64,000 nucleotides of DNA from Flavobacteriaceae bacterium (GTDB lineage: Bacteria > Bacteroidota > Bacteroidia > Flavobacteriales > Flavobacteriaceae), in contig JAQWJV010000011.1 in the NCBI GenBank assembly GCA_029248185.1, positions 1 to 64,000 on the forward strand, written 5' to 3'. The notes under the pieces are model-generated. The model was given only the letters and a program-made list of their open reading frames with translations. It ran no database searches and was not told the DNA's origin. The position numbers and the translations under genes were made by a program. Within the stretch, counting starts at the first letter, position 1; every line of letters begins with the position of its first letter. Positions 300 to 7,392 of this stretch are shown here, piece after piece.

Positions 300-323
300 T
301 GCTATTTCTTGAAAATAGTAGCA
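300..323. terminator. Hairpin downstream of integrase fragment
   Basis: The arms TGCTATTT and AAATAGtAGCA pair with one bulged base and a short loop, and T-runs flank the stem on the plus strand. It lies just after the stop codon of the recombinase fragment, where the other junctions also carry a hairpin, but its sequence is different. It probably acts as a terminator. Confidence 0.5.
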
Positions 324-330
324 TTTTCTT

Positions 331-552
331 TTAAACTACAGGCATATCATTTTCTGTAAGTTCTGGGATTTCTAAACCCCTTAGATAGGTTAAACTAACA
401 TTTATAGACGAGTGTCCCATTGCCTTTTGTAGCTTGGTTATACTTCCTGTTCTTTTAAAGATATCTATTGCTCCAGAGTGTCTAAATGAATAGATAGTAG
501 TAGTTGCTATAACATCAGGATTAAATCTCTTAAAACGTCTCCAAAGAAGCAT
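331..552 (-). pseudogene. Tyrosine recombinase, C-terminal catalytic fragment
   Basis: The 73-residue reading frame ends with the catalytic half of a phage-type integrase. It has YSFRHSGA, which is the box II arginine-histidine motif, then KAMGHSS, which is the second histidine, and SLTYL, which carries the nucleophilic tyrosine. It ends IPELTENDMPVV. The N-terminal DNA-binding domains and the first catalytic arginine are missing, and in-frame stop codons lie just upstream of the ATG, overlapping the next small gene. A full enzyme of this family has roughly 300-400 residues, so this is a remnant and should be inactive. Its last 12 or so codons recur in degraded form at several junctions further right. 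It resembles Bacteroidota integrases, but the exact subfamily cannot be told. Confidence 0.85.
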
Positions 553-556
553 AAAA

Positions 557-685
557 CTAAAATCGCCCTATTAGATATCCTACTAGAAAAGCTATGAGAA
601 CAAGAACTCGCATTTCCACCCCTAAACTTTTTGCGATTGAATCTACTCTATCTAAATTCCACTCTTTTATTTTTTCTAAATCCAT
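557..685 (-). CDS. Very small single-pass membrane protein
   Basis: This 42-residue frame is too short for usual gene calling. It begins MDLEKIKEWN with an amphipathic, charged N-terminal half, followed by one transmembrane segment (VLVLIAFLVGYLIG) and a short RF tail. It ends five bases from the ATG of the integrase remnant on the same strand. The clean charge-then-membrane pattern suggests a real protein, perhaps a holin-like, toxin-like or phage superinfection peptide. No family was recognised. Confidence 0.45.
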   Translation of the reverse strand: MDLEKIKEWNLDRVDSIAKSLGVEMRVLVLIAFLVGYLIGRF

Positions 686-830
686 AAATCAAAAATACAG
701 AACAGTATGGGAAGAACAGCAGGAACACCAATCAAAATAACCACAGCCATTTAGGGTTACGGAGAAACCTTTACTCGAACCCCTTTTAACAGAGTTTTTT
801 TTGTAGCTATAAATATGTTATATTTACAAT

Positions 831-1007
831 ATGAGTAAGTTTTGGCTAATTGTTGGATATATAACTGGTGTAGGTTGCATAGTTTCTATAATTCTTAGCA
901 TTGTAAATGCGGACTACATTGCAGCAATTGGCATTTCTCTTTTCTTCTATTTTATTTGGCTTACTCCAAATATGGTAAAAATCAAAAATTGGATTAAATC
1001 CTTTTAA
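831..1007 (+). CDS. Very small two-pass membrane protein
   Basis: This 58-residue frame begins MSKFWLIVGY and has two hydrophobic helices, at about residues 4-25 and 29-45, then a basic tail (KIKNWIKSF). Just upstream is TTATATTTAC, close to the Bacteroidota -7 box. A minus-strand frame overlaps it but is low in coherence, so the plus-strand reading is preferred. The product is an unknown inner-membrane protein. Confidence 0.5.
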   Translation: MSKFWLIVGYITGVGCIVSIILSIVNADYIAAIGISLFFYFIWLTPNMVKIKNWIKSF

Positions 1008-1077
1008 GGGGCTAGTTGATTCTTTAGACATAGACGATGTGGATATTAGCTAAAGAATTAAGATGCTTCAAATAGCC

Positions 1078-1219
1078 TTACAATACGTCTTACCAAGAAT
1101 GAAACAAGTTACTGATGAAGTAAGTGAAGATTTGACTTTGTTTAGCAAGTTCTGGAATTTGTAATTGTTTAATAATATTTATAGATTAGATAATTATTAA
1201 CCATAAATCAATTAAAATG
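1078..1219 (+). repeat. Junction repeat copy B (middle module and leader)
   Basis: This copy holds the central module (starting TTACAATACGTCTTACCAAG), the direct-repeat core variant GCAAGTTCTGGAATTT at 1145-1160, an AT-rich stretch with ATTTATAG, and the leader TTAACCATAAATCAATTAAA at 1197-1216. The hairpin and the integrase-tail half found in copies C-E are missing on its left. It leads to an ATG at 1217, in front of hxlR. Confidence 0.75.
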
Positions 1220-1288
1220 GAAGCCTATTCCTTATATTTTAAAAAAATGTGTGTAAAATTTACCATTAAGACTGAAGTAAATGGATAA
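1217..1288 (+). CDS. Possible 23-residue leader peptide upstream of hxlR
   Basis: The ATG placed exactly after the conserved cassette leader opens a 23-codon frame starting MEAYSLYFKK. Its stop TAA at 1286-1288 overlaps the first codons of the HxlR gene at 1281. In every other cassette that ATG is the start of the gene itself, so ribosomes probably enter here and may reach the regulator by translational coupling. It could also be a chance frame in a decayed junction. Confidence 0.3.
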   Translation: MEAYSLYFKKMCVKFTIKTEVNG

Positions 1289-1730
1289 GATTAAATACAA
1301 AAACAGGGACTCTCTATGCGCTTGCAAGGTATCACTTGATATTCTTGGGGACAAGTGGTCCTTAATCATTGTGCGGGATTTATTTAGAAATAAAAACACC
1401 TTTTCCCAATTTCTAAAAGAGTCAAGTGAAGGAATTGCCTCAAATATTCTTATCGACAGATTAAAAAAACTAATTGAATTAAATATTATTGGTTTTGAAC
1501 GAAACCCTGAAGATAAAAAAATTAAAAAGTATTATTTAACCGATAGAGGGGTAGATTTATACAGTATTATTTATGAATTACAGGACTGGACTATTAAGAA
1601 TGTAGATTTCAATCATTCAGCCAATACGGAAAAATGGGAAGAATTAAATACTCTAAAATCAAAGGACTTTGTTATTTCGAGTTATAAAAATGAATATAAA
1701 AAATTAAGACTAGAAGAATTTGGGGTTTAG
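1281..1730 (+). CDS. HxlR family transcriptional regulator
   Basis: The 149-residue protein matches the MarR-related HxlR winged-helix family. It has the typical N-terminus with cysteines at residues 13 and 15, then LDILGDKWSLIIVRDLF, a recognition region around ASNILIDRLKKL, and the wing GFERNPEDKKIKKYYLT. Length is near the family norm of about 110-150. HxlR proteins are dimeric cytoplasmic regulators, and several (HxlR itself, YodB) respond to formaldehyde, quinones or disulfide stress through an N-terminal cysteine. A zinc alcohol dehydrogenase three genes downstream fits an aldehyde or electrophile response, but that link is inferred. The gene sits in the island behind junction copy B, and the repeated leader is a possible operator. 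Confidence 0.88.
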   Translation: MDKIKYKNRDSLCACKVSLDILGDKWSLIIVRDLFRNKNTFSQFLKESSEGIASNILIDRLKKLIELNIIGFERNPEDKKIKKYYLTDRGVDLYSIIYELQDWTIKNVDFNHSANTEKWEELNTLKSKDFVISSYKNEYKKLRLEEFGV

Positions 1731-1733
1731 ACA

Positions 1734-1756
1734 TTTAATTGTTTATTGCAATTAAA
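1734..1756. promoter_or_regulatory. Perfect inverted repeat after hxlR
   Basis: TTTAATTG and CAATTAAA form a perfect 8-bp inverted repeat with a 7-base spacer, just after the hxlR stop and just before the -7 box of the next gene. It may be a weak terminator or an operator for the adjacent regulator. The AT-only arms make the operator reading attractive but unproven. Confidence 0.35.
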
Positions 1757-1763
1757 AATATTG

Positions 1764-1771
1764 TATATTTG
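1764..1771 (+). promoter_or_regulatory. Bacteroidota -7 box (TATATTTG)
   Basis: TATATTTG is an exact match to TAnnTTTG. It is followed by the leader copy at 1781-1800 and the start codon at 1801. No TTG lies at the ideal 19-nt distance; candidates end at 1741 and 1748. Confidence 0.5.
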
Positions 1772-1780
1772 ATTTAACCA

Positions 1781-1803
1781 TAACCATAAACCAATTCAAT
1801 ATG
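1781..1803 (+). repeat. Cassette leader copy (diverged)
   Basis: TAACCATAAACCAATTCAAT followed by ATG is a diverged copy of the leader. It lacks the hairpin, integrase tail and middle module, so hxlR and the gene at 1801 may have travelled as one cassette. Confidence 0.65.
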
Positions 1804-2547
1804 AAAAAAATAACCCTTTTACTCTTTACACTATTAATTTCCTTTTATTCTTTCTCTCAAGAGGCTAGACAAAATTGGGAATATTGGAATACTTGGAAAT
1901 ACACACCAAAAGTTGGTATGAATGAACAATTTGAGAATGCAGCAGCAAAAAAAACAAAAAAGTTTAATTCTGAAAATGATAATTTAATTGTTACATACAA
2001 AATTGTCACTGGACAAGATAACGGAACTTATCTAAGAATTCAACCTTTTCAAAAATCAAAAGATTATGATAAAGACAAATCTAATGAGTTAGAATACTGG
2101 CAAACAAATGTTTCAGAATATGTTGGAAAAGCTGGCGGACAACAAAGGTGGGTAAGAATGCCTTGGGGAGATGTAAACACGGATGGCACACCAAAGAAGT
2201 ATTTAACTCAGCATAGTTATATTATTAAACCAGGAAAAGTTCAAGATTTTAGAAGATGGCAAGAACGAATTGGCAAAATTAATTCAGAAAGAAGACCAGA
2301 AAACGCAAGGGTAATTCTTGCAATTATATCTGGTGGTAACTGGCAGGAATTTATTGTTTTTAATGGATTTGACAAGTACGAAAGTTCACCGAAAAAGTTT
2401 GATACAACCTGGGAAGAAGAATATAATAAAAGATTTGGAGCTAATTCTTGGGATGATGATAGAGAAAGCAGTAGTGAGTCTATTGAAATGCTTATTGGTC
2501 ACCAAGTTCAAACCCTAGAACTTGTAGAAGCTATGATGCCTAATTAA
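1801..2547 (+). CDS. Secreted protein of unknown function (island paralogue 1)
   Basis: The 248-residue product has a signal peptide ending near residue 19 (LISFYSFSQ), so it is exported. The mature part is polar and rich in Trp and Lys, with no catalytic motif that I recognise. It seems built from two similar alpha/beta halves: IVTYKIVTGQDNG in the first and HSYIIKPGKVQDFRRW in the second, which resembles the strand-helix pattern of dimeric alpha-beta barrel proteins. It is more distant from the two secreted proteins that follow than they are from each other. It has its own promoter and leader. The ligand, if any, is unknown. Confidence 0.75.
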   Translation: MKKITLLLFTLLISFYSFSQEARQNWEYWNTWKYTPKVGMNEQFENAAAKKTKKFNSENDNLIVTYKIVTGQDNGTYLRIQPFQKSKDYDKDKSNELEYWQTNVSEYVGKAGGQQRWVRMPWGDVNTDGTPKKYLTQHSYIIKPGKVQDFRRWQERIGKINSERRPENARVILAIISGGNWQEFIVFNGFDKYESSPKKFDTTWEEEYNKRFGANSWDDDRESSSESIEMLIGHQVQTLELVEAMMPN

Positions 2548-2626
2548 TATTTTATAATTATCTGTTACAATTCCTTAAGGGAAATGATTTTTATTAAATA
2601 TTAGTAAAGTAATTTTAGCCAATTTT

Positions 2627-2741
2627 AACGTCACAAATTAACTTTAGTGACGTTTTCTTTTAAACCGCAGGCATATCCTCTTCAGTAAGTTCTGGGATTT
2701 ATTTATATTAGATAATTATTAACCATAAATCAATTAAAATG
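2627..2741 (+). repeat. Junction repeat copy C (short form)
   Basis: It contains hairpin arms AACGTCAC (2627-2634) and GTGACGTT (2647-2654). Next comes the integrase tail, which on the minus strand reads PELTEEDMPAV then stop, and the core GTAAGTTCTGGGATTT at 2685-2700. It ends with TTTATATTAG and the leader TTAACCATAAATCAATTAAA at 2719-2738. Only one direct-repeat core is present and the middle module is absent, as expected if the two cores recombined. Confidence 0.8.
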
Positions 2742-3488
2742 AAAAAAATTATTTTATTATCTTACTTTTTTTCCACAGTAATGTTTGGTCAAAATGTAAT
2801 AGAGATTCATTACAGACATGTTCCAAAAGAGCATATAGCTGAATTTGAAGCTAAAGAAATGAACCATTGGTCTAAAGTCAAACAAAACGCAATTGACAAC
2901 GGCGACATGTTGGCAACTGCCTTTTTTAAGGTAGCTGATGCTGGATTAGTTCAAGATAATACTATGCCCACTCATGCCTTTGTATTAATTTACAAAGATT
3001 TTAAACAATTAGCTGATTCAAAAAATATTTGGTCTAGTGCTGAAGAAGTTTTAGGAATGAATCCAAGTTATATCTCAACAGATGAAATCTCTACTACAAT
3101 GATGATTCAACGATATAAATTAATTGATGAACTTTCACCGCTTAAAGAATTTAAATACGCTGTGTGGAATTATTCAAAACCTAAAAACATGAATGGTTTT
3201 GTTAATGAAAATATTAAACTATGGAAACCTTATTTTGAGAAAAAAGCAGGTAAAAACGGTTTTGCAGGTTGGGGAATTTTAGCACGGGTATATCCTCAAG
3301 GAATGAATGAATCAAGCATCCTAACTTACGACCACTACACTAGTTTAGATAGTGCAATGCAAGCTCTTTCTCCAATGGATTTTGACTCATCAATTTTGTC
3401 TAAATCAAAAATGTCTGAATATGACCCAGATGGTTTTAGATATAGAGTCTTATTAGAGCTACTTCAATTCCAGGGAAGTGTAAACTAA
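2739..3488 (+). CDS. Secreted protein of unknown function (island paralogue 2)
   Basis: The 249-residue product starts with a signal peptide (MKKIILLSYFFSTVMFGQ). Its first half has a strand-helix-strand layout (IEIHYRHVP, then a long helix ending KQNAIDNG, then a strand), and its second half repeats the layout (FKYAVWNYSKP and helix). This looks like a duplicated dimeric alpha-beta barrel fold. K-x-NAIDNG is shared with the protein at 3720 (HKNAIDNG), so the two are paralogues. No active-site residues are recognised. The gene sits between junction copies C and D with its own promoter-leader. Confidence 0.75.
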   Translation: MKKIILLSYFFSTVMFGQNVIEIHYRHVPKEHIAEFEAKEMNHWSKVKQNAIDNGDMLATAFFKVADAGLVQDNTMPTHAFVLIYKDFKQLADSKNIWSSAEEVLGMNPSYISTDEISTTMMIQRYKLIDELSPLKEFKYAVWNYSKPKNMNGFVNENIKLWKPYFEKKAGKNGFAGWGILARVYPQGMNESSILTYDHYTSLDSAMQALSPMDFDSSILSKSKMSEYDPDGFRYRVLLELLQFQGSVN

Positions 3489-3510
3489 ATAAAATACTTT
3501 TTAAAAAACG

Positions 3511-3722
3511 AACGTCACTAATTAACTTTAGTGGCGTTTTCTTTCAAACCATAGGCACATCCTCTTCAGTAACTTCTACAATTCACCTTGACAAGAATGA
3601 AACACGCTACTAATGAAGTAAGTGAAGACTTGCCTTTGTTTGTTTAGTGAGTTCTTGGATTTGTGATTCTTTAATAATAAGTTTATATTTAAGTATTATT
3701 AACCATAAATCAATTTAAAATG
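3511..3722 (+). repeat. Junction repeat copy D (full form)
   Basis: In order it holds hairpin arms AACGTCACTAA (3511-3521) and TTAGTGGCGTT (3528-3538) with one G-T pair, and the integrase tail reading VEVTEEDVPMV then stop on the minus strand. The direct-repeat core follows at 3569, then the middle module, the second core GTGAGTTCTTGGATTT at 3647-3662, TTTATATTTA, and the leader at 3699. The two cores are 78 bp apart. Confidence 0.8.
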
Positions 3723-4454
3723 AAAAAATTATTATTCACTTTTTTACTATTTACATTCGTTGTAACAGCACAAAAAAATATGCCTGTAGGGATGCATTAT
3801 GTTACAGTTGAATCATCAGATGCAAATGAATTAATTGAATTAGAAAAAAACTATTTTTCGAAACTTCATAAAAATGCCATTGATAATGGGGAAAAGATTG
3901 GTTGGGATATGTGGAGACTAGAAAACAGTGCTAACCCTAATCACACTACTTTTTTGTACGTACACTTACAACCATCTTTAGAATCTAATTTTGGAGGCGA
4001 TAATAAAGAAATGTTTCCTGAATCTGAATTATCAATGGCAAAAAAAAGATGGGGTGAACTTGTTGTTAAATCAGAATTCATAATGACTTCTTATAAAGGA
4101 GGATTTGCTCCAATCAATGAAAAACCTGTTAAATATGTTCAATTAAGCTATATGAATGTAAATCCAACAGGTCATTATGATTATGAGCAAATGGAATTAA
4201 AGGATTTTATGCCATCACATAAAAGCAATAAACTTCTTAAAGGTTGGTCTCTTCACAGAATAAATACCCCCCACGCTGAAAGTGAAGATGACTACCTTAC
4301 AGCAAACTTTTTTGAATCAATGGAGGACATTTACAGGAATACAGATGGTGTTGCACAACTTTCAAAACAACAAAAAATGAATTATCAAAAAATTCTTGAC
4401 ATTAGAGAAATGACTAAAGTTGAAGTTTTAAGCCTTGTAATGGGAGTTAGATAA
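3720..4454 (+). CDS. Secreted protein of unknown function (island paralogue 3)
   Basis: The 244-residue product has a signal peptide (MKKLLFTFLLFTFVVTAQ) and a mature part with two alpha/beta halves. The first runs from MHYVTVESSDANELIELE to HKNAIDNGEKIGW and the second from VKYVQLSYMNVNPTGHYD to KGWSLHR. It is paralogous to the protein at 2739, most clearly in the helix ending NAIDNG. A perfect 7-bp inverted repeat (AGAATAA/TTATTCT, 4454-4477) follows the stop and may end transcription. Function is unknown; a periplasmic binding or antioxidant role would be speculation. Confidence 0.75.
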   Translation: MKKLLFTFLLFTFVVTAQKNMPVGMHYVTVESSDANELIELEKNYFSKLHKNAIDNGEKIGWDMWRLENSANPNHTTFLYVHLQPSLESNFGGDNKEMFPESELSMAKKRWGELVVKSEFIMTSYKGGFAPINEKPVKYVQLSYMNVNPTGHYDYEQMELKDFMPSHKSNKLLKGWSLHRINTPHAESEDDYLTANFFESMEDIYRNTDGVAQLSKQQKMNYQKILDIREMTKVEVLSLVMGVR

Positions 4455-4487
4455 GAATAATGTAATTTACTTATTCTCAAAAATACG

Positions 4488-4708
4488 AACGCCTCTAATT
4501 CACTTTAGAGGCGTTTTCTTTTAAAGCACAGGCATATCCTCTTCAGTAAGTTCTACAATACACTTTACCAAGAATGAAACAAGCTGATAATGAAGTAAGT
4601 GTGGACTTGCCTTTGTTTGTTCAGTAAGTTCAGGAAGAAAAACTCGGATTAGAGATATTGTAGATTTTCTTATATTAGTAGCTAATTAACCATAAATCAA
4701 TTAAAATG
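4488..4708 (+). repeat. Junction repeat copy E (full form, perfect hairpin)
   Basis: The hairpin arms AACGCCTCTAA (4488-4498) and TTAGAGGCGTT (4505-4515) pair perfectly over 11 bp. Then come the integrase tail (VELTEEDMPVL and stop on the minus strand), the core at 4546, the middle module and the second core at 4624. An AT-rich promoter with TTATATTAG and the leader at 4686 finish it. Here the whole module stays open on the minus strand, running from PELTEQTKAS through to the tail. Confidence 0.8.
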
Positions 4709-5710
4709 AAGGTAAATGCATACGCTGTAAAAGAACCTAAAGGCAAATTAGTCCCTTTTTCTTATGAATCGGGGGAGTTAAGTCCCGAAAACATCGATAT
4801 TAAAGTTTCCTATTGCGGTCTCTGTCACTCAGACATGAGTATGATGAATAATGATTGGGGAATGACACAATATCCAATTGTTCCAGGTCATGAAATAATT
4901 GGTGAAATAGTTGCAGTGGGAAATGCAGTTAAAAATTTAAAAGTCGGAGATAAAGTAGGTCTAGGCTGGATGTCCTCTTCTTGTATGAGTTGCTCTGAAT
5001 GTATGAGTGGAGACCATAATTTGTGTGGCAATTCAGAAGGTACAATTATTGGAAGACATGGTGGTTTTGCAGAATACGTAAGAAGTCACTGGTCGTGGGC
5101 TATTCCAATTCCAGAGGGTATGGACCTTAGTAAGGCTGGACCCTTATTGTGTGGAGGAATAACTGTATTTAGCCCAATATTTTTATCTAATTTAAAACCA
5201 ACAGACTCTGTGGGAGTAATAGGGATTGGAGGTTTAGGTCATTTGGCTATAAAATTTTTAAAACATTGGGGTTGTGATGTGATAGCATTTAGCTCAAATC
5301 CGTCCAAAAAGGATGAAATCTTATCGATGGGAGCAAATAAGGTAATCAATTCAAAAGACTCTGATGAATTAAAGTCAGTAACAGGAAAATTAAAATTCAT
5401 ACTGAACACAACAAATGTAAGTTTAGACTGGGATTCCTACTTAACTGCTTTATCACCAAAAGGTAAATTACATACTGTTGGAGCAGTCTTAGAACCAATG
5501 GAAATCCCTGCTTTCAGTTTAATTATGGGAGATAAAAGTGTTGGAGGTAGTCCAATAGGAAGTCCAGAAATTATTAGAATAATGCTTGATTTTTGTAATA
5601 GACATAACATTTACCCAAATGTTGAAGAATTCCCAATGGAAGAGGTAAATGAGGCTATAGAACATTTAGAACAAGGTAAAGCACGCTACAGAATAGTTTT
5701 AAAGAATTAA
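4706..5710 (+). CDS. Zinc-dependent NAD(P)-alcohol dehydrogenase, cinnamyl-alcohol dehydrogenase type
   Basis: The 334-residue protein is a medium-chain dehydrogenase/reductase that interconverts alcohols and aldehydes in the cytoplasm. Visible are the catalytic zinc ligands C40 (GLCHSD), H62 in GHE, and a likely third ligand at C149. The structural zinc set is C93, C96, C99 and C107. The Rossmann loop GIGGLGH lies at 173-179. The SSNPSKK stretch after the second strand suggests NADP preference, as in the YahK/CAD branch. It is the last gene of the island. Together with HxlR it suggests handling of reactive aldehydes, which is an inference. The start directly follows the repeated leader. Confidence 0.92.
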   Translation: MKVNAYAVKEPKGKLVPFSYESGELSPENIDIKVSYCGLCHSDMSMMNNDWGMTQYPIVPGHEIIGEIVAVGNAVKNLKVGDKVGLGWMSSSCMSCSECMSGDHNLCGNSEGTIIGRHGGFAEYVRSHWSWAIPIPEGMDLSKAGPLLCGGITVFSPIFLSNLKPTDSVGVIGIGGLGHLAIKFLKHWGCDVIAFSSNPSKKDEILSMGANKVINSKDSDELKSVTGKLKFILNTTNVSLDWDSYLTALSPKGKLHTVGAVLEPMEIPAFSLIMGDKSVGGSPIGSPEIIRIMLDFCNRHNIYPNVEEFPMEEVNEAIEHLEQGKARYRIVLKN

Positions 5711-5846
5711 ACCCCAGGCACATCTAGAGTAAGTTATACCAAGAATGAAAAAAGCTACGAATGAGGTGAGTGTGGACTTGCCTTTGTTTGTTGAGTAAGT
5801 TCTGAGATTTGTTATATTAGCTGTAACTATAAATCAATTAAAAATA
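5711..5846 (+). repeat. Junction repeat copy F with no gene behind it
   Basis: The integrase tail relic begins right at the stop of the dehydrogenase gene, without a hairpin (minus strand: LTLDVPGV then stop). The middle module follows, then the second core GTAAGTTCTGAGATTT at 5795-5810, TTATATTAG, and the leader AACTATAAATCAATTAAAAA. No ATG or reading frame follows, so the promoter-leader drives nothing visible. From 5847 to 5950 nothing recognisable is seen. The two core copies are 66 bp apart here instead of 78. Confidence 0.75.
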
Positions 5847-5950
5847 TACAATCCTATACATTAATCTGACGGCATTAACACTAAACCACTAATAATAGGG
5901 TATTAGAGAGTGGAATTGTTTAAAGAAAATCACAAATGAATAAGGGGTAA

Positions 5951-5994
5951 TCTGATTAACAGTCAGATGCTCTAACCAACTGAGCTAAGGAGGA
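5951..5994 (-). tRNA. Truncated tRNA-Asn(GTT), 5' half only
   Basis: Reading the minus strand from 5994, the sequence TCCTCCTTAGCTCAG gives the acceptor 5' strand and D-arm. TCTGA-CTGTTAA-TCAGA then forms the anticodon stem-loop with anticodon GTT, which is asparagine. Straight after the anticodon stem the sequence becomes TTACCCC and no variable loop, T-arm or GGAGGA acceptor strand follows. The gene is broken at a position (anticodon arm) often used by tyrosine recombinases, with the island on the 3' side. Unless another copy exists, the product cannot be functional. Confidence 0.85.
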
Positions 5995-6011
5995 ATGTTT
6001 TAATTGGTGCG

Positions 6012-6041
6012 CAAATATAAATGTTTTGTTGCATTATACAA
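6012..6041 (-). promoter_or_regulatory. Promoter of the truncated tRNA-Asn gene
   Basis: On the minus strand TTG (6039-6041), 19 nt, and TATATTTG (6012-6019) match the Bacteroidota -33/-7 consensus exactly. The tRNA begins 18 bases downstream. The intact promoter shows that the tRNA gene was active before disruption. Confidence 0.75.
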
Positions 6042-6072
6042 ACCCTAAAAAATATTTTATTTCAATCTTTTT

Positions 6073-7392
6073 TTAATCAAAAAGTAAGCGGAATAAATCA
6101 TTGCCGTTTGCATACAGAACCAAAGCCATCAGAAGGAAAAATCCAAACATTTGTGCATATTCCATAAACTTATCGTTTGGCTTTCTGCCAGTGATGATTT
6201 CATAGGTTAAAAACATGACATGACCTCCATCTAAAGCGGGGATGGGGAGAATATTCATAAAGGCTAAAATGATAGAAATTAAAGCGGTGCTGGCCCAAAA
6301 ACCTTTCCAATCCCAAGTGCCAGGAAACATATTTCCAATCGCTCCAAATCCACCTAATTGGGAGGCTCCTTTTTTGGTAAAGATATACTGAAACTGGGCT
6401 ACATAGTCATAAAGCGTCCAATAGCCATAATCAAAGCCTTCAATTATACTTTCAGACAAACTTAATTTTTCGTTGTTAAATTGGATGAGAGGGTTTTTTG
6501 GATAAACACCAATTGTTCCCTCTTCATCAGTGCTAAATTGTAGCGTTTGACGTGAACGATCGCGTTCTATTACCATAGTGATATCTTGCTTTCCCTTTCC
6601 TTTAATACGAGCGCTTAAGTCATTCCAGTATTGTATTTTTTCATCGTTGATTGAAATCAAACGATCCCCAGATTGAAGTCCAATTAGTGCTGCAGGACTG
6701 TTGGGAATTATAGAATCTAAAACGGGAGCTAAGGTTGGGCTGAAAGGCATCAACTCACCACTTTCAAACATTTTTTTGCCAATCCCTTCAGGGATTTCTA
6801 GGGTAGTGAAGTCGCCACTACTCCGTTTAACCGTTACTTGATGGACATCTCTTAAAAACAATAGTTTATTGATTTCAAAAACATTATCTAAGGTTTTACC
6901 GTCTACAGTTATTATTTGATCTCCAATTTCAAATCCAGCGTCTTGAGCTACTGGCGACGGACTTAAGCCCAGGGGTAAAGCCTCAGTGTATAGGGTGTTT
7001 TTGCCCCAAACAAACAAGATCATCATGTAGATGAGGAATCCTAAAATAAGATTTACGGTTACTCCCCCCAACATGATTATCAAACGCTGCCATGCGGGTT
7101 TGGAACGAAATTCCCACTCCTGTGCAGGTTGATTCATTTGCTCGGTATCCATGCTTTCATCTATCATTCCAGAGATTTTCACATACCCTCCCAGCGGAAG
7201 CCAACCTATACCATAGGTAGTTTCACCAATTTTCTTTTTAAATAAAGCAAATTTAACATCAAAAAAAAGGAAGAATTTTTCTACTCGAGTTTTAAAAATT
7301 CGAGCGGGGATAAAATGCCCTAGTTCATGGAGAATGATCAAAAAGGATAAACTCATCAATAACTGAATGGCTTTTACAAAAAAGGGACTCAT
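6073..7392 (-). CDS. rseP: RIP metalloprotease RseP (site-2 protease)
   Basis: The 439-residue inner-membrane zinc protease cleaves transmembrane segments, classically of anti-sigma factors and leftover signal peptides. The zinc motif HELGH is at residues 22-26 inside the first helix. Two PDZ regions are seen at about 135-200 and 215-295, and the third zinc ligand motif NILPIPALDGG starts near 380, with membrane helices before and after. Length is typical of the RseP/YaeL family. The start at 7392 lies about 20 bases after a TACTTTTG box. It is the first intact gene right of the island and looks like core genome. Confidence 0.95.
   Translation of the reverse strand: MSPFFVKAIQLLMSLSFLIILHELGHFIPARIFKTRVEKFFLFFDVKFALFKKKIGETTYGIGWLPLGGYVKISGMIDESMDTEQMNQPAQEWEFRSKPAWQRLIIMLGGVTVNLILGFLIYMMILFVWGKNTLYTEALPLGLSPSPVAQDAGFEIGDQIITVDGKTLDNVFEINKLLFLRDVHQVTVKRSSGDFTTLEIPEGIGKKMFESGELMPFSPTLAPVLDSIIPNSPAALIGLQSGDRLISINDEKIQYWNDLSARIKGKGKQDITMVIERDRSRQTLQFSTDEEGTIGVYPKNPLIQFNNEKLSLSESIIEGFDYGYWTLYDYVAQFQYIFTKKGASQLGGFGAIGNMFPGTWDWKGFWASTALISIILAFMNILPIPALDGGHVMFLTYEIITGRKPNDKFMEYAQMFGFFLLMALVLYANGNDLFRLLFD

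Follow-up and report, generated by a model that had tools for sequence, protein, structure and literature searches.

Islands that carry a 5′ fragment of their target tRNA gene are known and rare, since the portion of the Islander report consulted gives a 5′ fragment for 159 of 3919 islands and a 3′ fragment for 3760 (PMC4383910). As seen in relatives of the source genome, the elements described here resemble those islands in their complete tRNA gene with a displaced 5′ fragment, their tyrosine integrase and their anticodon-centred site; a conserved element-borne promoter and an integrase family of two polarities were not found in the same portion, and the word 'promoter' occurs 0 times in the main text (PMC4383910). 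The archaeal pTN3-like elements similarly have the 5′ half of a tRNA gene as attB and, according to the sections consulted, express the rebuilt tRNA from the integrase promoter (PMC8371274), as would the elements proposed below. Their integration disrupts the integrase gene (PMC5495485, PMC8371274, in part), whereas the integrase gene (int) is intact in three of our genomes (G014, G001, and G011), in none of which an attP lies inside it. These elements also belong to another domain of life, and they are likened to ours by layout. According to the part of PMC8371274 consulted, bacterial tRNA genes that have undergone recombination retain, with very few exceptions, the promoter they had before. 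In ICEKp1, the tRNA-Asn promoter reads into int when the element is integrated and an end promoter drives int in the circle, much as proposed below; the consulted portion describes integration at the 3′ end, however, with the tRNA keeping its own promoter (PMC13023037).

As far as the literature examined goes, the new features of the present system are a promoter that is carried by the element and conserved over several tRNA targets, and the occurrence of both polarities in a single integrase family. Elements carrying a 3′ half leave the tRNA promoter untouched, whereas the 5′-half family of this genus seems to take it over. As this happens at what is apparently the only tRNA-Asn gene, an essential gene seems to have become dependent on the element. 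Because related integrases use the same anticodon-stem site with opposite polarity, the change between 3′ and 5′ halves can be traced on a tree and would be testable in the laboratory.

The half tRNA-Asn gene and the rseP site in relatives

The window, which is the whole 64 kb stretch of DNA analyzed, represents contig C33 of an 89% complete MAG of 53 contigs and 1.91 Mb. On its minus strand, the 5′ half of a tRNA-Asn(GTT) gene, a displaced fragment of 44 nt that spans the first base through the anticodon stem, was identified at 5951–5994 by Rfam and by its match to the relative G023. The native promoter precedes it on the same strand, with a −7 box TATATTTG at 6012–6019, 25 nt before the tRNA and identical in G023, and a −33 box TTTG at 6039–6042, 19 nt from the −7 box. 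We take TTTG, 19 nt, and TATATTTG to be the promoter motif of Bacteroidota. The chromosomal neighbour on the right side, rseP (M50 protease; 6073–7392, minus strand), anchors the locus in relatives.

Only positions 10–42 of the Rfam tRNA model match (window 5985–5951, minus strand), with 27.9 bits, just below the gathering score of 29 (E 0.0028 in 1.5 kb), and ARAGORN made zero tRNA calls across the 64 kb window. Over the 34 nt core CTCAG...TCAGA and the preceding 60 nt, a stretch that takes in the promoter, the window and G023 do not differ; in G023 the tRNA-Asn goes on intact past the shared core, at the contig end. Immediately past the anticodon stem the similarity to G023 stops, and element sequence beginning with TTACCCCTTATTC follows in the window. 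The preliminary description had reported an intact promoter with a 5′ half and no 3′ part, and had placed an island end inside tRNA-Asn; the partial Rfam match and the promoter identity in G023 bear out the first statement, and the second agrees with our finding that the 44 nt half is followed by an element left end homologous to those at five other loci. The half tRNA is most likely the footprint of a mobile element that inserted into the front half of a tRNA gene.

A count of tRNA-Asn in the whole genome, which that description had proposed, was made on all 53 contigs and gave one occurrence of the anticodon stem-loop; two more matches with 3 mismatches (C32 and C42) both lie outside the tRNA matches of the genome. 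The matching 3′ half, which it had suggested seeking at the other end of the island, did not turn up, as all seven matches to the tRNA-Asn 3′ half pattern (≤2 mismatches, 53 contigs) are inside other tRNA genes. The far end of the island lies beyond the contig start, outside the sequence examined. The tRNA-Asn of the source genome has probably not been lost, and a complete copy would be expected beyond the contig start, since relatives show one at the far end of the element.

In a DNA search with rseP and the half as query, 39 of 40 genomes matched, the source genome included, and the loci of 20 relatives were compared, most of the relatives' genomes being incomplete MAGs. The site is empty in G023, G007, G020, G021, G022, G016, and G005, where the native promoter and half are continuous with the 3′ half (in G022, the contig stops 9 nt into it). 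Of the 20 relatives' stretches given to ARAGORN, 15 yielded a tRNA-Asn without interruption. Leaving G000 aside, the half is continuous with a 3′ half in 26 genomes of the genus, five contigs ending 6–9 nt later. The tRNA-Asn pattern gave a single match in 25 of these 26 genomes, and G017 has a second, 5′-damaged copy that ARAGORN did not call; tRNA-Asn thus looks single copy in the genus, as judged by a pattern that would miss more diverged copies. The contigs of G007, G013, G022, G023, G042, G043, and G044 end 6–33 nt past the tRNA-Asn half, as expected if strains in the population differ at this site. Mobile DNA was also observed on the 3′ side of the same tRNA-Asn, namely relatives of the small gene p102 in G011, G016, and G015 (L045, L049, and L051) and clade B integrases in G021 and G017 (L036 and L093).

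Element ends, upstream promoter motif, and alternative explanations

At four loci, a half and a complete tRNA gene were found within one contig. Beside rseP in G010, the half gives way to TTCCCC..., and a complete tRNA-Asn lies 6.5 kb on, its upstream region unlike that of the half. In G014, half and complete tRNA-Asn are likewise 6.5 kb apart with an integrase in between; this half is in turn flanked by element-type sequence, an arrangement that two elements in tandem would give. Two other tRNA genes show the same layout: tRNA-Arg(TCT) in G001, with 9.7 kb between half and complete copy on a 1.1 Mb contig, and tRNA-Met(CAT) in G009, with 6 kb. In G011, an Arg half stands next to an integrase and the far end falls outside the sequence compared. 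A complete tDNA with an upstream 5′ fragment in the same orientation, by which 5′-fragment islands are recognized, is thus present in G010, G014, G001, and G009, and the fragment end only in the window. A Phage_integrase domain lies beside the half in G014, G001, and G011; the window holds only a remnant of another clade, and its element's left end is adjoined by a cargo cassette array instead of int. This left end (TTACCCCTTATTCATTT...GTCAGATTAATGTAT; 5856–5950, minus strand) was aligned with those of G010, G014, G001, G011, and G009. The six left ends are homologous: when the window was compared with each of the other five, 0 of 1000 shuffles per comparison scored as high as the actual alignment. 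The junction between half and element had 0 exact matches in IMG/VR.

The preliminary description had supposed that the element failed to restore its tRNA and that the rest of the gene was either lost by a later deletion or survived intact at the island's left end or elsewhere. Neither failure to restore nor later deletion is supported: a half plus a complete copy is seen in G010 and G014 (Asn), G001 (Arg), and G009 (Met), so that the half beside rseP would be a normal displaced fragment, the 3′ half staying with the complete copy. The layout with an intact copy at the other end is seen in relatives, and in the source genome that end is off the contig. That description assumed the usual 3′-half rule, whereas the element here carries a 5′ half.

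From these comparisons of sequence, we hold it highly probable that the half tRNA is the displaced fragment of a tyrosine-integrase element that recombines at the tRNA-Asn anticodon stem-loop with reversed polarity and swaps the promoter. This reading draws on both ends seen at four loci, the empty sites, the homology of the ends, the conservation of a promoter motif, and the opposite polarity of related integrases. The attachment site of the element would hold the first 44 nt of the tRNA, its 5′ half. On integration, the native promoter and 5′ half would stay beside rseP, reading into the element, and at the far end a complete tRNA-Asn would be rebuilt from the 5′ half of the element and the chromosomal 3′ half. 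With its 7 nt loop, the anticodon stem-loop is nearly palindromic; were strand exchange to occur in this loop, an element with either half could rebuild the gene, and one that carries the 5′ half would take over the promoter. The rebuilt tRNA would then be transcribed from a putative element promoter ~112–140 nt upstream. In the circular form, the same end promoter probably drives int, reading through the 5′ half; once integrated, it would read the tRNA, and the native tRNA promoter would read toward int.

That the 3′ half was instead deleted, after or without integration, with another tRNA-Asn elsewhere in the genome, would fit a MAG without any tRNA-Asn 3′ half. However, the tRNA sequence stops precisely where the anticodon stem ends, next to sequence homologous to element ends at Asn, Arg, and Met genes elsewhere, and tRNA-Asn is apparently single copy in the genus (one match in 25 of 26 genomes), all of which makes such a deletion very unlikely. 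We give still less weight to an assembly chimera of two tRNA-containing fragments. The source is a MAG, and the contigs of seven relatives stop ≤33 nt past the half, but the junction of half and element occurs independently in G010 and G014 with equivalents at Arg and Met, and both element ends share a contig at four loci. As tRNA introns lie near the anticodon, the position of the break would also suit a split tRNA or one with an intron, the 3′ exon being located further left. Contig C33 has no such 3′ half, which the preliminary description had named as the mark of an intron-split tRNA, and the tRNA-Asn called in 15 of 20 relatives' stretches is uninterrupted, leaving this explanation with hardly any probability.

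The displaced-fragment reading involves a promoter brought by the element, and a candidate was found at the right ends. Twelve right ends were chosen by eye from known flanks (ten Asn, including the tandem half of G014, one Arg, and one Met), and 11 of them have the motif TAnnTTTG 112–140 nt ahead of the tRNA, compared with a mean of 0.35 and a maximum of 4 in 2000 rounds of single-base shuffles. As the right ends are related by descent, this recurrence reflects conservation and not 12 independent events. Some right ends have further motifs (at 31 nt in G008, at 95–96 nt in G010 and G017, and at 196 nt in G024), and the Arg half of G001, an element-type flank outside the 12-end test, has the motif at 136 nt. 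In the 26 genomes of the genus, counted without the damaged second tRNA-Asn copy of G017, the nearest TAnnTTTG lies at 21–67 nt in 17, and nine, which include G008, G010, G017, and G024, have one at 119–136 nt (an exact match in eight and one mismatch in G015). In G009 and G050, the motif is at 67 nt, and their flanks fit neither the native nor the element class well. Among the element-flank genomes, the stretch from rseP to the tRNA was scanned in eight (G051 left out), and a half with a non-element flank persists beside rseP in G010 only, so that decay or another route must be assumed for the other seven.

By eye, an upstream block is common to the right ends at Met (G009) and Asn (G010, G015, G017, and G051), whereas the native Met and Asn genes have dissimilar flanks; the promoter block is therefore part of the element. 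Short direct-repeat pairs between promoter and tRNA differ from element to element, but each element has its pairs again at the opposite end (G010 and G014, by eye); they may be arm sites of the integrase. In G001, the identified tRNAs include one tRNA-Asn, which is the copy behind the element promoter. This tally rests on 36 Rfam matches: 30 were covered as loci, of which 26 were scanned, and six more matches were observed as neighbours; of the remainder, three are unassigned and one is the Arg half.

Integrase family and polarity

The integrases of clade A begin 150–200 nt from the 5′ half in G014, G001, and G011, are mutually 41–60% identical, and have a reading frame that starts after the half and is open throughout. 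Among 395 sampled genomes of the order, 20 contained a clade A relative at E ≤ 1e-40, at 21 loci, and up to 420 nt before each integrase was read. At 19 of these 21 distant loci, the integrase starts beside a tRNA 3′ half cut at the anticodon stem, the tRNA being tRNA-Asn in eight of the 19. At L121, only a short piece resembling the Asn anticodon stem was seen, and at L115 no tRNA 3′ half was found in the up to 420 nt read before the integrase. A complete tRNA is present at four of seven distant loci with the flank examined (G294, G157, G384, and G399), and in G213 the contig ends close by; a motif of the TATATTTG type is visible before three tRNA-Asn copies among these four genomes. Judged from such flanks, the relatives of these integrases in other genera act at the same position in the anticodon stem, with the usual 3′ polarity.

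In the phylogenetic tree, the three 5′-type integrases (G014, G001, and G011) form one group (support 98/97), to which the integrase of G071 is sister (100/100), and both fall within a 24-row group together with 3′-type integrases (99/95). The tree is midpoint rooted, nine of its 26 inner branches are open, and its outgroup rows have no assigned polarity. The simplest reading would be one polarity change within the family; by numbers a change from 3′ to 5′ is likelier, the direction not being fixed by the tree. G071 has the nearest integrase outside the genus (41% identity). No tRNA half was recognized beside it, and a search of nine more genomes from its family added no second integrase of this kind. 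In IMG/VR, clade A has three weak relatives and clade B none; integrase matches occur in 44 phage records, all at <60% identity, and among plasmids there is one weak match for clade B.

Both polarities also seem to occur at the clade B loci L102 (tRNA-His), L101 (tRNA-Ala-like), L093, and L107. Beside clade B integrases, the 5′ part of the tRNA is kept and the 3′ end lost in G045 and G015, and the 3′ part is kept in G017 and G010; the set further comprised G049, which is unclear, and G021, at a contig end.

The cassette array left of the half tRNA

The 5.9 kb left of the half consists of genes parted by a repeated boundary site, the array spanning 316–5802. All its features are on the plus strand except a tyrosine integrase C-terminal remnant of clade B (331–552, minus strand; 68–81% identical to clade members), whose 3′ end is overlapped by a cassette site (339–366; 7 mismatches). 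It is followed by a remnant of p102 (1012–1119), which is a small gene near the element's far end in G014 and G001, and by an HxlR-type regulator (1281–1730). The next three genes are cassette genes without a Pfam match and encode 248 aa (1801–2547; also without an NCBIfam match, with a 48% identical relative in the G024 island), 249 aa (2739–3488), and 244 aa (3720–4454). Boundary sites follow at 2668–2695 (4 mismatches), 3552–3579 (7 mismatches), and 4529–4556 (6 mismatches to the consensus), respectively. The last cassette gene (4706–5710) is an NADPH-dependent aldehyde reductase, Ahr-like and above the NCBIfam cut-off, and the array closes with a partial boundary and p102 remnant of repeat families D9 and D1 (5709–5802).

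In the loci compared, 112 distinct cassette sites were aligned. A 25 nt core of the site consensus TTTAAATCATCGGCATATCCTCTTCATTAAGTTCAGG was found with ≤3 mismatches in 32 of 38 genomes of the genus (reversed control, 0 of 38) and the site occurs also in G071, of another family; the four sites in the window are among the more diverged (4–7 mismatches over 28 nt). With a looser site definition and without deduplication, 103 units between successive sites ≤3.5 kb apart have a median length of 872 bp. In 92 units the longest ORF and the site share a strand, in six they are on opposite strands, and five units have no ORF of 60 aa. All six clade B integrase genes examined have their 3′ end overlapped by a site. 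Integron-like arrays of mostly single-gene cassettes were observed at L181, L182, L183, L184, L106, and L036 in addition to the window. Contigs C12 and C24 also have sites close to their starts, which could be parts of the array in the window, with nothing joining the contigs.

Eight pairs of units, each drawn from two genomes, could be aligned along ≥85% of the longer member; two of these pairs cross the family boundary (G071 with G049 and with G014). Among the known neighbours, the next neighbours of recurring pairs are not similar, the G009–G017 pair sharing a wider context. Compared with G017, G009 has one extra single-gene unit of 825 bp between flanks of 96% identity; a ~65 bp repeat lies at the join, and homologous recombination between repeats could alternatively be the source of this difference.

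Five integrases scored 24–38 bits with the IntI-type model TIGR02249 (cut-off 265), and the folds of the consensus alone were unlike attC (37 nt, −0.6 kcal/mol as DNA, z −1.28; 81 nt, z −0.11). The site had 0 exact matches in IMG/VR, and it is undescribed in the limited collection of literature examined, which includes parts of PMC10865867, PMC8371274, PMC13023037, PMC5495485, and PMC4383910. We tentatively propose, as a possibility somewhat short of an even chance, that this genus of flavobacteria has a two-layer mobile system in which elements that take over single-copy tRNA genes, promoter included, from the 5′ side would be combined with single-gene cassettes at a 37 bp site that may be mobile without an integron integrase or attC. 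One class of sequence following the site (GAAGAAAAACACG) resembles p102 coding sequence. In G001 (L038:2858–3520), a cassette with a short gene lies inside p102, with p102-like sequence seen by eye on both sides.
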